Shown in pieces: positions 56,286-60,173 of a DNA stretch of 64,000 nt; the stretch's first letter is position 1; each line of letters begins with the position of its first letter. The position numbers were made by a program, and so were the translations under genes. The notes beneath the pieces are model-generated. The model had not been told where the DNA came from. It saw only the letters and a list, made by a program, of their open reading frames with translations, and searched no databases. This stretch comes from Melioribacter sp. (GTDB taxonomy: Bacteria; Bacteroidota; Ignavibacteria; Ignavibacteriales; Melioribacteraceae): positions 62,001 through 126,000 of the forward strand of contig PMDS01000037.1 in NCBI GenBank assembly GCA_003155655.1. The letters are read 5' to 3'.

Positions 56286-57197
56286 TTAAAATAATCCTTC
56301 AACCGAAAGGTATCTCTCGCCTGTATCATAATTAAAGGTAAGAATACTTTTTCCTGGTTCTATCTCACCTAATTTTTTTGAAACTGCAGCAAGAGCTGCC
56401 CCGGAAGAGATACCGATGAACAAGCCCTCCTCTTTTGCTGCACGCTGTGTAAAATCATATGACTCTTCTTTAGTTACTGTAATTACTCCATCCAATAATG
56501 AGGTTTGCATAATTTTTGGAATAAATCCTGCACCTAAACCCTGCAAGGGATGTGGTCCGGGTTGACCGCCCGATAATACCGCCGAAGCCGCAGGTTCAAC
56601 AGCAAAAACTTTCGTAGCAGGAAATTTTTCTTTCAATACTTTTCCCACACCGGTTATATGCCCGCCTGTACCAACTCCGGTAATTACATAATCAATTCCT
56701 TTTGGAAAGTCGTTTAAAATTTCCTGAGCAGTTGTTTTAATATGAATATCAACATTTGCCTGGTTTTCAAATTGCTGTGGAATCCAGGCATTTGTATTGT
56801 TTGATGCAATCTCATTTGCTTTTGCAATTGCGCCTTTCATTCCTTGTTCGCGCGGTGTTAATTCAAAAGTGGCTCCGTAAGCCGACATTAACTTTCTTCT
56901 TTCAATAGACATTGATTCCGGCATTACCAATAATAGTTTGTACCCTTTAACAGCTGCAACAATTGCCAACCCAATTCCAGTGTTTCCCGATGTCGGCTCA
57001 ACAATCAAACTGCCCGGCTTTAAAATTCCTTTTTTCTCGGCATCTTCTATCATTGCAAGACCAATTCTGTCTTTGATGCTTCCGCCCGGATTTGCTTTTT
57101 CCAGTTTTATCCAGACCTCATGTTTATTTCCAAAAAGTTTATTGATTCTAACGTGAGGTGTGTTGCCGATTGTTTCTAATATATTTTGCGCTTTCAT
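56286..57197 (-). CDS. cysK: Cysteine synthase (O-acetylserine sulfhydrylase)
   Basis: A 303-residue PLP enzyme that makes cysteine from O-acetylserine and sulfide. The PLP lysine is K42 in [11 protein letters not shown]. The phosphate/substrate loop is [28 protein letters not shown] is the glycine loop, and [19 protein letters not shown] is the conserved active-site region. Length and N-terminus ([17 protein letters not shown]) match CysK. It lies 12 nt after cysE, completing a two-gene cysteine operon that begins with the polycysteine leader ORF at 58129-58242. Confidence 0.96.
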
Positions 57198-57209: not shown

Positions 57210-58073
57210 TTAAATTATAAATTCTATTGAGTCTTCAAATTCCTGGTTTGTTCTTATTCTAACTTCACTCTTGTGATATACTATTGAGTTAGGCGGAATG
57301 CTTTGTGTAACCCACGAGTTACCGCCGATAATACTGTTATTGCCAATAACTGTGCTGCCGCCAAGAATTACAGCCTGTGAATAAATTATAACGTCATCCT
57401 CAATTGTTGGATGGCGCTTGATCTGGGCAAGTGATTTATCAACGCTAAGAGCTCCAAGTGTAACACCCTGGTATATTTTTACATTTTTGCCAATAACGCT
57501 TGTCTCGCCAATTACAATACCTGTTCCATGATCAATAAAAAACGGAGAGCCGATTTGCGCCCCGGGATTTATATCCACGCCTGTTTTTTCATGGGCATAT
57601 TCTGTTAAAATTCTTGGAATAATAGGCAGGTGAAGTTGATAAAGTTCATGGGCGATTCTGTAAATTAATATTGCAATAAACCCGGGATAAGCAAGAATTA
57701 CCTCGTCTATACTTTCCGCGGCAGGGTCTCCTTTGTAAATTGCCTCTGCATCCTCCCAAAGCATATCATGGATTTTGGGAAGGCTGCCGATAAATTCTTT
57801 TGCCGTATTTTCTTCATCGCCTGTAAAATTACCGTTAAGGTTTTTAATTAAAGTGATTAAATTCCTTTCAAGCAATTGAAGCTTGGCAAGAATGTCTTCT
57901 TTTGAATAATATACTTTACTTGAAAAATGGGGAAAAAGAAAGTCAATTAGTTCGTTTAAGAATTCAATTGCCTCTGCTTTCAGCGAAGAAGTGCATGAAT
58001 GTGTCTGTCTTTTACCTAATAAGGTTTCTGCAAATTCATTGAACATAGTACTATTATTAATTAATGCTTTCAT
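57210..58073 (-). CDS. cysE: Serine O-acetyltransferase (EpsC/CysE type)
   Basis: A 287-residue acetyltransferase that makes O-acetylserine from serine and acetyl-CoA, the first step of cysteine synthesis. The N-terminal helical part includes YPGFIAILIYRIAHELY. The left-handed beta-helix carries the catalytic His and Asp motifs (TGVDINPGAQIGSPFFIDHG, VIGETSVIGKN, GVTLGAL). It is the longer form with an extended N-terminus common in the FCB group. No Shine-Dalgarno is seen before the ATG at 58073. The polycysteine leader ORF ends 55 nt upstream on the same strand. Confidence 0.95.
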   Translation of the reverse strand: MKALINNSTMFNEFAETLLGKRQTHSCTSSLKAEAIEFLNELIDFLFPHFSSKVYYSKEDILAKLQLLERNLITLIKNLNGNFTGDEENTAKEFIGSLPKIHDMLWEDAEAIYKGDPAAESIDEVILAYPGFIAILIYRIAHELYQLHLPIIPRILTEYAHEKTGVDINPGAQIGSPFFIDHGTGIVIGETSVIGKNVKIYQGVTLGALSVDKSLAQIKRHPTIEDDVIIYSQAVILGGSTVIGNNSIIGGNSWVTQSIPPNSIVYHKSEVRIRTNQEFEDSIEFII

Positions 58074-58128
58074 AGTTGTTTTTTATAATTGTTAAAAAAA
58101 TAATCTAAGATGAAAAGCTAGCGGAATA

Positions 58129-58242
58129 TTAGCAGCAACAACAGCAGCAGGCGGTAAAACCTAAAGCAGGTAAAGAGATTTCCAAAGGTGCGGTCAGAGT
58201 CTCTTTAAACGTTTGTATCATATTTCTTTTTGTTTGCTTCAT
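58129..58242 (-). CDS. Leader peptide ending in six cysteines, upstream of cysE-cysK
   Basis: A 37-codon ORF, ATG at 58242 to TAA at 58129-58131. The body reads MKQTKRNMIQTF and on to ISLPALGFTA, then six consecutive Cys codons (TGC TGC TGT TGT TGC TGC) directly before the stop. It faces the same way as cysE, with 55 nt between. A promoter-like sequence ends about 33 nt upstream. By analogy with known amino-acid leader peptides, and with polycysteine leader ORFs reported in mycobacteria, ribosome stalling at the Cys run when Cys-tRNA is low could raise expression of cysE-cysK. A 7-bp complementarity (AAAGAGA / TCTCTTT) lies within the ORF. No clear intrinsic terminator is visible, so Rho or translational control would be needed. 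Confidence 0.75.
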   Translation of the reverse strand: MKQTKRNMIQTFKETLTAPLEISLPALGFTACCCCCC

Positions 58243-58274
58243 TTTTAAATAAAATGCTTTGTAAATCTGTATCC

Positions 58275-58305
58275 ATTATAACAAATATTTAAATAAAAAG
58301 TTCAA
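58275..58305 (-). promoter_or_regulatory. Promoter-like sequence for the leader and cysE-cysK
   Basis: On the minus strand a TTGAAC (58305-58300) and a perfect TATAAT (58280-58275) are separated by 19 nt. The expected transcription start near 58268 gives a short leader of about 26 nt before the polycysteine ORF. The spacing is slightly long; FCB promoters often differ from this consensus, so moderate confidence. Confidence 0.5.
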
Positions 58306-58339: not shown

Positions 58340-59587
58340 TCAGATCTTATAGACAATTCCCACTGAAAATGAAAAATTTGTATCGGTATAATCATCGTTT
58401 ATTGTTTGCGGCACAACTAATACCTGGTGCCATTTCAAAATAGAATATTCAAATGCCAGATCCAATACGAGCTTTTTGATGTTGAGCGAAGTGCCAAGTG
58501 TTAAAATATGTTTTATGTTTCTATCTGTATTAACATAATTTGAAACTGTGTTTGACTGCCCGGTTGAATTACCTGAATAATATAATTGGGGCACATATTC
58601 ATAACCGGCCCTAAATGGAATTTGGTAATCCCCATTAGTAGTATATTGAACTCCGGCTCTCAAAATATTGATATTATTCCATACGGGTTTGCCGCCAAAC
58701 TCATAAAGATTCAATTGAACATCAGAAGATTTATACTGGCGTGATTCATAATCCGCTTCAAAAAGCCAATTTGCCGATTCTTTATATGAAAACCCAGCTC
58801 CTATTACAAACGGCATATTCAAATCAGTACTTTCATAATTTGGGAAAAGATATTCATATAATCTGTTTGCGGAAATTTGTTTTGCCGCATCAACATTCAT
58901 TTTAAACGGAGATTCGACAGTTAATCCGGCTGTCCAACTTTCCTGCTTAAGTAATAAGCCCAGTTTTAAATTTATGCCACTCAATTTGCTTGCCAGGTTA
59001 GCCCATTTATCAGCATCATTACCATGGTTATCTCCTACTACACTGCTGGTAATTGTTCCAAAATATTTGTAAACATTAAGACCGGCTGAAAATGAATTAG
59101 AGAAGGAATAACAAATAGTTCCGGCCGCGGCATAAACACTACCGGAAGTTTCTTGTGTAAAAAGATCACTAAATGTAACTGCTCTTTTTTTGTTAATTAA
59201 CTGGGGGTTTAATTTCTGAAAAACACCAACGCCAACAATTAAATTTCCTGTAACCGGGTAAGTGAGCGCTCCGTGTTCAAACGACCATTGAGTTTTATCC
59301 CATACAAAAGTTGTTCCTCCAACAGTGCTGCTGATTCTGTCTAAATCATAAGAATAAAATTTAACTTTTTGTGAAAACGAAATATTTATTGAACTTGGGT
59401 TTATCAATGTAGCTGGGTTTAAGTCAAATGAAGAAATACTTTGAGAGGCTGCAATTCCAGTTTCTCCCATAGAATTATAACTGCCTGAATGATATCTGAA
59501 CAGTAGATCGGAATTTTGCGCTTTATTAGAAAAGCCGGCAAATAGTATGATCAGAAAAAAATATATGGATGGAGTATTTTTCTTCAT
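58340..59587 (-). CDS. Outer-membrane beta-barrel protein, FadL/PorV-like
   Basis: A 415-residue exported barrel with a signal peptide (about 1-23, ending NKA/QN). The start of the mature part, SMGETGIAASQSISSFDLNPATLI, is the usual N-terminal pattern of the OmpP1/FadL and PorV/PorQ groups (a G-x-A-x-A...NPA plug motif). Regularly spaced amphipathic strands follow, and the last strand is FSFSVGIVYKI. It could import hydrophobic compounds or act as a secretion-associated barrel; I cannot tell which. The stop lies 266 nt upstream of cysE with the leader ORF between. Confidence 0.8.
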   Translation of the reverse strand: MKKNTPSIYFFLIILFAGFSNKAQNSDLLFRYHSGSYNSMGETGIAASQSISSFDLNPATLINPSSINISFSQKVKFYSYDLDRISSTVGGTTFVWDKTQWSFEHGALTYPVTGNLIVGVGVFQKLNPQLINKKRAVTFSDLFTQETSGSVYAAAGTICYSFSNSFSAGLNVYKYFGTITSSVVGDNHGNDADKWANLASKLSGINLKLGLLLKQESWTAGLTVESPFKMNVDAAKQISANRLYEYLFPNYESTDLNMPFVIGAGFSYKESANWLFEADYESRQYKSSDVQLNLYEFGGKPVWNNINILRAGVQYTTNGDYQIPFRAGYEYVPQLYYSGNSTGQSNTVSNYVNTDRNIKHILTLGTSLNIKKLVLDLAFEYSILKWHQVLVVPQTINDDYTDTNFSFSVGIVYKI

Positions 59588-59680
59588 TTATTTCTAAAGA
59601 TTATGAACCTGTTTTAAATATAGATATAACAACCATAAAGAAAAATTCATAAATAAAGTTCTATTGAGACATTTAAAATA

Positions 59681-59706
59681 AAAAGCCCCGCAGAGCGGGG
59701 TTTTGG
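59681..59706 (-). terminator. Terminator after the cold-shock gene
   Basis: GCCCCGC / GCGGGG stem with a 3-nt loop and flanking A and T runs, 21 nt after the stop codon of the cold-shock protein gene. Confidence 0.9.
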
Positions 59707-59726
59707 TTGCCAAAATAATAATTAAA

Positions 59727-59939
59727 TTATTTCACAACTTTCACTTCTTGAGCTTGAGGTCCCTTTGGTCCATCACCAACAGTGAATTCAACTGGTTGAC
59801 CTTTCTCAAGTGCACGGTATCCTTCCTGCTGGATAGAAGAAAAATGAACGAATACATCTCCGCCTTGAGCTCGCTCGATAAAACCGTAACCTTTTGTAGC
59901 ATTAAACCACTTTACGGTTCCATTTTCACGTTCTGCCAT
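59727..59939 (-). CDS. Cold-shock protein (CspA family)
   Basis: A 70-residue CSD protein that binds single-stranded RNA and DNA as an RNA chaperone. RNP-1 is KGYGFIER and RNP-2 is VFVHFSSI, within the usual [16 protein letters not shown] start. A strong AAGGAG ribosome-binding site precedes the ATG. The 234-nt upstream gap may hold a structured 5' leader, as is common for csp genes, but I cannot show one. A strong terminator follows, so it is monocistronic. Confidence 0.96.
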
Positions 59940-60173
59940 TAAAACAACTCCTTAAGAATAATAAATGCATGACTCCTAACGCCTCTGCTGCAAAATTGGC
60001 CGCATTAGCTGAATGGTGTCAAACATACAAATAAATATTTTTAAAAGAAATAAATTTTTGAATGCTCTAGTTTATCAAATTGTTAAATCAAACCAGTCTA
60101 TAAATTTTTAAATCTGGGCATAAATCCCTAATGATTTATAAATCAAAAACTAGATTTACTACAAAATTGTACT

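Follow-up and report, generated by a model that had tools for sequence, protein, structure and literature searches.

Why does a short open reading frame that closes with six cysteine codons in a row stand directly before a pair of genes for making cysteine? The question is raised by one locus in a 64,000-nucleotide stretch of Melioribacter DNA, the whole of which we call the window. The features concerned, all on the minus strand, are the following:

58275-58305, minus strand: promoter-like pair, TTGAAC (58305-58300) and TATAAT (58280-58275) separated by a 19-nt spacer, as read from the sequence
58129-58242, minus strand: leader ORF (upstream ORF, uORF) of 37 codons plus TAA (58131-58129), peptide MKQTKRNMIQTFKETLTAPLEISLPALGFTACCCCCC-stop
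58132-58149, minus strand: six consecutive Cys codons, TGC TGC TGT TGT TGC TGC, the proposed sensor (shuffle-tested)
58074-58128, minus strand: spacer of 55 nt from the uORF stop to the cysE start
58101-58128, minus strand: the 28 nt after the uORF stop, with 6 C and 3 G, proposed as part of a Rho-loading region
57210-58073, minus strand: cysE, serine O-acetyltransferase, 287 aa, with family profile matches
56286-57197, minus strand: cysK, cysteine synthase A, 303 aa, separated from cysE by 12 nt, with a profile match

We propose that the uORF is a leader gene which senses charged tRNA-Cys and controls cysE-cysK, with Rho as the output, and we assign a probability of roughly 0.62 to this reading as a whole. 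Its parts are held with different strength: it is highly probable that the uORF acts as a cysteine-sensing leader attenuator, for which an expression response is predicted, and we regard the odds of a transcriptional output through Rho in this genome as evenly balanced.

A preliminary description of this DNA had reported the 37-codon ORF with its six terminal Cys codons before TAA, its position 55 nt ahead of cysE, and the TTGAAC/TATAAT pair just upstream, and all of these are found as described. The cysE product scores 163.3 bits against NF041874 (serine O-acetyltransferase; cut-off 150) and 165.5 bits against TIGR01172, the latter under the cut-off of 210.65, and the cysK product scores 409.5 bits against TIGR01139 (cut-off 350.95). 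The promoter-like pair occupies the region 33-63 nt upstream of the uORF start, with its -10-like box ending 33 nt before that start; a consensus promoter scan of the window, which permits spacers of 16-18 nt only, does not list it. An element like its first half ([TG]TGAAC, TGGAAC or TAGAAC, 150-280 nt before cysE) is present in 24 of 40 relatives, compared with a mean of 4.0 and a maximum of 10 for such TTGAAC-like elements in mononucleotide shuffles.

The cysE gene was followed in three sets: 79 genomes of the family, 52 genomes drawn from its order and class, and a named genome collection (best 80 of 488 cysE loci taken). A complete or nearly complete cysE of this kind is present in 42 of the family genomes, and examination of all 42 loci revealed a start-containing uORF ending in cysteine (at least two Cys in the last nine residues) at 40 of them, the exceptions being L035 and L036, where no Cys leader was found. 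These leaders are 23-54 codons long, and the distance from the uORF stop to the cysE start, as inferred by script, is 47-95 nt overall and 47-60 nt in 30 of the 40. For comparison, 840 shuffles preserving dinucleotide composition were made from the 240-nt stretches ahead of the 42 family cysE genes, and start-containing ORFs were scored: at least two Cys in the last nine residues were obtained in 5.8% of the shuffles (observed at 40/42 loci), at least three in 0.1% (observed at 25/42), and at least four in none of the 840. Once the last nine residues are removed, the bodies of the polycysteine (polyCys) leaders exhibit an identity of 0.22, versus 0.19 when shuffled, for 126 pairs with 70-80% identical CysE, and of 0.28 versus 0.19 for 13 pairs with 80-90% identical CysE; an identity of 0.64 is kept only by four pairs with CysE at least 90% identical. 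By sequence comparison, then, the Cys-codon tail is retained at cysE of the relatives, the remaining peptide drifting. The preliminary description had expected precisely such ORFs upstream of cysE orthologues, with the Cys codons kept and the rest free to change, and within the family both expectations are borne out.

Against this stand ten related cysE genes that form a well-supported group (L048, L053-L057, L059-L061, L072) and in which no Cys leader was found; in six of these, a cysK-like gene follows 240-320 nt after cysE rather than about 14 nt. Of 63 further named cysE loci whose upstream sequence was long enough, 5 had at least three Cys in a uORF tail (shuffle expectation 0.9%). The 52 genomes of the order and class yielded nine near-full-length cysE matches, and one of these (L320, in genome G428), which belongs to a different family within this order, carries a leader with a pronounced Cys tail, CNCCCCLCCCCGC-stop, the richest in Cys that we have seen.

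Short Cys-rich ORFs were also noticed upstream of cysE at the Bacteroidia loci L084, L088 and L118 (MKNCCCCCHGFY, MKNCCCYSFY and ...GGVCMCC). The short MKNCCC leader of the Sphingobacteriales loci L084 and L088 was pursued as a candidate and rejected: it matched in 6 of 395 genomes of the phylum, with all six sites inside long open frames.

Leaders of the same kind also precede other sulfur genes. Excluding the cysE leaders, 99 sites in the family at which four Cys codons run into a stop (Cys4-stop sites) were examined; through genome G023 both TAA and TAG were followed, with the TAG site G014:C215 and all TGA/TGG left out, and in G024-G078 TAA only, where the 66 sites comprise 7 cysE leaders and 59 examined sites. 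Ninety-three of the 99 lie inside an ORF, meaning here any open frame of 100 codons or more, on either strand, as picked out mechanically. Among the six outside, four precede cysH operons, one precedes an operon running from sulfate uptake to sulfite reductase, and one is without a start codon. A direct search then gave 13 true cysH loci, of which 12 are assessable (L284, with only 327 nt upstream, being excluded). At eight of the 12 (L274, L276-L281, L283), a leader ending in CCC or CCCC lies just before the first gene of the operon, a DUF2061 gene, with its stop 74-117 nt ahead of it. At L275, in genome G017, the leader SQSMSCLMYCCCCC-stop stands ahead of an entire operon consisting of a solute-binding gene, two permeases, an ATPase, cysH, cysD, cysN and a likely sulfite reductase, where several of the gene names are our own reading of the translations; the sulfate-binding protein of this operon was found in no other of the 79 family genomes. 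The leader tails are CMCLCCINC at L285 and CMCMDCIY at L293, and in both cases a strong terminator and then a SAM riboswitch come next; L282 has a SAM riboswitch, a Cys tail not being found there. At the level of sequence, the same kind of leader is thus seen before sulfate-assimilation operons of the family. The cysteine sensor that the preliminary description had suggested gains support from the 40 of 42 cysE loci, from the drift of the bodies and from these five sulfur-operon sites; a conserved Cys-rich protein independent of cys genes, which would have spoken against it, is not borne out in the family, the sites adjoining sulfur operons.

Several minor observations concern the cysH loci. 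A gene for a small DUF2061-like membrane protein (about 75-85 aa; one protein confirmed with Pfam, the others judged by eye) is found directly before cysH at L274, L276-L281, L282, L283, L285 and L293. At L285 and L293, a Cys-rich uORF with terminator and then a SAM riboswitch before the DUF2061-cysH operon make two sulfur sensors in tandem. L279 and L281, from genomes of different assigned genera (G056 and G064), have near-identical cysH leaders and differing cysE leaders, which may reflect either horizontal transfer or a binning error.

The 40 cysE leaders of the family are of two kinds. Twenty-five possess Cys-rich tails such as CCCCCC, CCCC, CICCC, CICCCN, CTCCCC and CCCTSFICCN, and the other 15, L039 among them, close with [GSR]Y[FYLI]x[TSA]C[ILVM]C-stop (the TCIC kind; in L267 two extra residues separate the motif from the stop). 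At L065, the locus of the cultured relative Stygiobacter electus 09-Me, the leader has the ending ACCCTSFICCN. A tree comprising the 42 family CysE plus seven others places the polyCys loci in one group (support 100/99) and the TCIC loci in another (85/91, and in 88% of the bootstrap trees). In a larger CysE tree with more named loci, both groups are interrupted by leaderless loci, including the ten described above, so that the leader was probably lost in those ten relatives. Both trees are midpoint-rooted, and the larger one labels L062, L068 and L071 as leaderless, yet each has a CCC ORF; the leader of L045 contains N bases. As far as the literature was searched, we have not seen the TCIC conserved-peptide class of cysteine leader described, and among the matches listed in a search on arrest, nascent and leader peptides there was no cysteine-related report.

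How else might these ORFs be explained? A chance run of TGY triplets could be imagined, since runs of five Cys codons occur at five places in the 4.6 Mb genome, the window leader being one of them. The other four all lie within or antisense to long ORFs, however, and the presence of a Cys-ending uORF at 40 of 42 orthologous loci, compared with 0.1% of shuffles for tails with at least three Cys, refutes a chance run because it is conserved across these loci; the view of the preliminary description that chance is very unlikely was well founded, and we give this explanation practically no credence. That description had named a metal- or thiol-binding micropeptide as the main alternative. A functional micropeptide would account for the Cys-rich tail as such and for the CxC and CC spacings of some relatives, but the body of the window leader is only 0.14 identical to that of its closest relative found (L013, with 80% identical CysE), its peptide has no Pfam or NCBIfam match, and the location of these ORFs is tied to sulfur operons, so that this alternative has become very improbable.

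More weight has to be given to the nascent peptide itself in the relatives with TCIC leaders, as distinct from the polyCys leader of the window. In these 15 leaders, the peptide, and not just slow decoding of Cys, may arrest ribosomes on the stop codon or ahead of it, the signal perhaps being a sulfur metabolite sensed through the CxC end, while polyCys leaders would act as codon counters at the same position elsewhere, including the window. Tyr and both Cys are invariant and Thr is present in 13 of 15, whereas third bases vary at Gly, Tyr and Ile, and hence the TCIC peptide appears to be selected at the protein level; its bodies also drift more slowly (identity 0.34-0.41 at 70-90% CysE identity, 11 pairs). 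A strict DNA pattern for this kind occurs in 8 of the 79 family genomes, with every match just upstream of cysE, and in 4 of 395 genomes of the phylum, namely three cysE leaders already among those eight and one intragenic site. Compared with shuffled sequence, the TCIC leaders have the stronger hairpin at their stop codon (mean z -1.58, Fisher p 2.4e-5, 6 of 15 below 0.05, kinship ignored), and polyCys leaders show no such excess at theirs (mean z -0.22). On the other hand, two Cys codons may suffice for sensing starvation, as in the cysS case described in the accessible part of PMC8632094; the Cys codons of the TCIC kind are themselves fixed in the third base (TGC in 14 of 15, then TGT in 15 of 15), which suggests a constraint on the RNA too; and the hairpin test, which ignores kinship, gives a weaker result in a wider window of sequence around the stop (mean z -0.8, p 0.009). 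Arrest in the TCIC leaders is therefore possible but doubtful. If true, a codon-starvation sensor and a nascent-peptide sensor would exchange places at one orthologous gene.

The sensor may also be the same and the output translational, with leader RNA pairing to the cysE start region as long as no ribosome has stalled on the Cys codons to release it. Translation attenuation has been reported for mycobacterial cysteine genes (PMC13236596, PMC9031893, both as far as their accessible text goes), and in minimum-free-energy folds the Cys codons are paired with the cysE start region for the window leader (L012) and for L014, L015 and L025. We placed a masking ribosome at 15 codon positions in turn and computed the cost of opening the cysE start region. 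For the last eight positions, the mean change over the 40 leaders is only -0.01 to 0.19 kcal/mol, and for positions further upstream it is -0.14 to -0.37 kcal/mol; individual leaders gain up to 3.5 kcal/mol (L025), but the window leader gains at most 0.8 kcal/mol among the positions listed, and the spacers of the 40 family leaders, folded alone, are not more structured than shuffles. In this energy model there is thus no meaningful mean release over the 40 leaders, we reject start-site sequestration of the mycobacterial type on that ground, and a translational output appears unlikely.

An intrinsic terminator is likewise not indicated. The spacer between uORF and cysE in the window contains no terminator-like site, and terminators in the family leader spacers number 3 in 40 versus 3.65 in shuffles, and thus are not in excess. 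What the leaders do share is a C-rich, G-poor region. The 28 nt after the uORF stop contain on average 6.4 C and 1.8 G, with more C than G in 39 of the 40 family cysE leaders, and the uORF bodies together hold 600 C versus 339 G. In the stretch from -55 to -27, C exceeds G in 95% of the leaders versus 46% of 158 control genes, and for the stop-anchored stretch the difference from control genes has a Mann-Whitney p of 4e-14, kinship being ignored; some of the control genes were taken from cysE loci, and if cysE itself is among them, this would only weaken the contrast. C also exceeds G after the stop in all eight CCC/CCCC cysH leaders, and the G017 leader has 8 C and 2 G there, while this was not seen for the terminator-bearing cysH leaders L285 and L293. 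A full Rho gene is present in the genome of the window. The features expected of a Rho-type output are thus found for the family, but the window alone is not exceptional: its own stretch is unremarkable, the 6 C and 3 G being reached by 26% of the control genes. Moreover, the C richness could stem from other selection, for example against structure. Nonetheless, the combination of (i) no excess of terminators, (ii) hardly any start-site release, and (iii) a shared C-rich, G-poor stretch favours Rho as the output. The preliminary description had seen no intrinsic terminator and had considered a Rho-dependent or a translational mechanism; the former remark holds, and these data shift the choice towards Rho.

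The Rho-dependent reading may then be pictured as follows. The uORF would be the first thing translated on the cysE-cysK mRNA. With ample cysteine, the ribosome would pass the Cys codons, terminate and depart, leaving the C-rich, G-poor RNA exposed; Rho could load there, and transcription would end before or early in cysE. With cysteine in short supply, the ribosome would stall on the Cys codons beside the C-rich region, Rho would be kept off, and cysE-cysK would be transcribed.

For a few relatives, namely at L062 and in the cysH leaders L285 and L293, we propose that this sensor is wired to an intrinsic terminator instead; the terminator/antiterminator layout of the trp type, absent in the window, is present by complementarity only at these three loci. 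L062 (cysE 68% identical, with an unclear cysE start) has a uORF ending in ACCCRINTKQSKDFV with a CCC run, and the 5' arm of its terminator is complementary to a segment that begins 25 nt downstream of the run's first base (duplex -13.3 kcal/mol, terminator hairpin -15.4 kcal/mol). By classical attenuator logic, this antiterminator segment would be available for pairing while a ribosome is stalled on CCC, and would be covered once the ribosome has reached the stop. At L285 and L293, the motif GAAGGG just after the Cys tail recurs as the 3' arm of the terminator, and hence could compete for the 5' arm. Folding with a masked ribosome gave no switch for any of the three, the local terminator forming at every ribosome position; the terminator thus wins at equilibrium, and the argument for a switch rests on complementarity combined with co-transcriptional folding.

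How does the window leader compare with known systems, as far as these are covered by the accessible portions of the reports cited here? Polycysteine leaderless short ORFs are described as cysteine-dependent attenuators in M. smegmatis (PMC9031893, PMC9094748 and PMC13236596, citing Canestrari et al. 2020), and Cys-run leaders without conserved terminators were predicted in 2005 for Mycobacterium, P. acnes and B. longum (PMC1262725). Like the mycobacterial leaders, the window has a short ORF with a Cys run near its stop before a cysteine or sulfur operon and, going by the available text of PMC1262725, shares with them the lack of a conserved terminator. Unlike them, it belongs to another phylum, has the C-rich stretch after the stop that is seen in its family, and exhibits hardly any start-site sequestration; its Ignavibacteria family, furthermore, possesses the second, conserved-peptide kind and, in few relatives, intrinsic terminators. 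From the position of the promoter-like pair, a short 5' stretch ahead of the uORF is predicted, so that the window leader is also probably not leaderless. By anatomy, then, it appears to resemble the known Cys-run leaders, without start-site release or a classical terminator.

The uORFC-8-2 motif upstream of cysS in Rhodobacterales, for which ribosome-mediated attenuation has been proposed (PMC8632094), likewise places a uORF with Cys codons before a cysteine-related gene, but there two tandem Cys codons lie inside a structured RNA with an intrinsic terminator, and gene and phylum are different; this layout is resembled here only by L062, L285 and L293. With respect to the proposed output, E. 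coli tnaC is similar in that access of Rho to a nearby site is blocked while a ribosome sits at the end of the leader ORF (PMC8429421); according to the same source, tnaC differs in that free Trp is sensed via the nascent peptide, in that stalling occurs on excess rather than shortage, and in that the operon is catabolic. The E. coli mdtU uORF (34 codons, with its stop 106 nt before the gene, and linked to premature Rho termination) shares with the window leader the short uORF and the involvement of Rho, the C-terminus being the most conserved part, but is responsive to spermidine and is not a Cys-codon leader (PMC7815308). In Flavobacterium psychrophilum, from the same broad phylum group as the window, leader-peptide attenuation has been inferred before amino-acid biosynthesis operons; the amino acids go unnamed in the portion of PMC9723704 at hand, and a cysteine case may be among them. 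Our literature search, with most subscription papers out of reach, found cysteine leaders unreported for this group.

The leader of these cysteine-making genes is very probably a switch which senses cysteine shortage by ribosome stalling. Polycysteine leaders are already known from actinobacteria and a Cys-codon uORF before cysS from Rhodobacterales; Cys leaders across the cysE and the cysH and sulfate-uptake operons of an Ignavibacteria family now suggest ribosome-based cysteine sensing in another phylum. They appear to form a natural series that combines one constant sensor with different outputs (a terminator, a SAM riboswitch in tandem, and probably Rho), and the TCIC kind offers a candidate arrest peptide for sulfur metabolism. 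Patterns of a Cys run plus stop outside genes suggest a way to find such leaders.

Three smaller observations may be added. Where its near neighbour L014 has CCCCC, L015 has TGA in place of one Cys codon, and its run is reduced to three Cys. The gene upstream of the leader in the window (58340-59587, minus strand) is BamG-like, at 73.1 bits and thus below the cut-off of 250. Further upstream (59678-60072, minus strand), the Rfam cspA thermoregulator model matches with 56.1 bits (E 1.2e-12), below its gathering score of 78, and a cold-shock-like gene, named by eye, lies under this match at 59939-59727.
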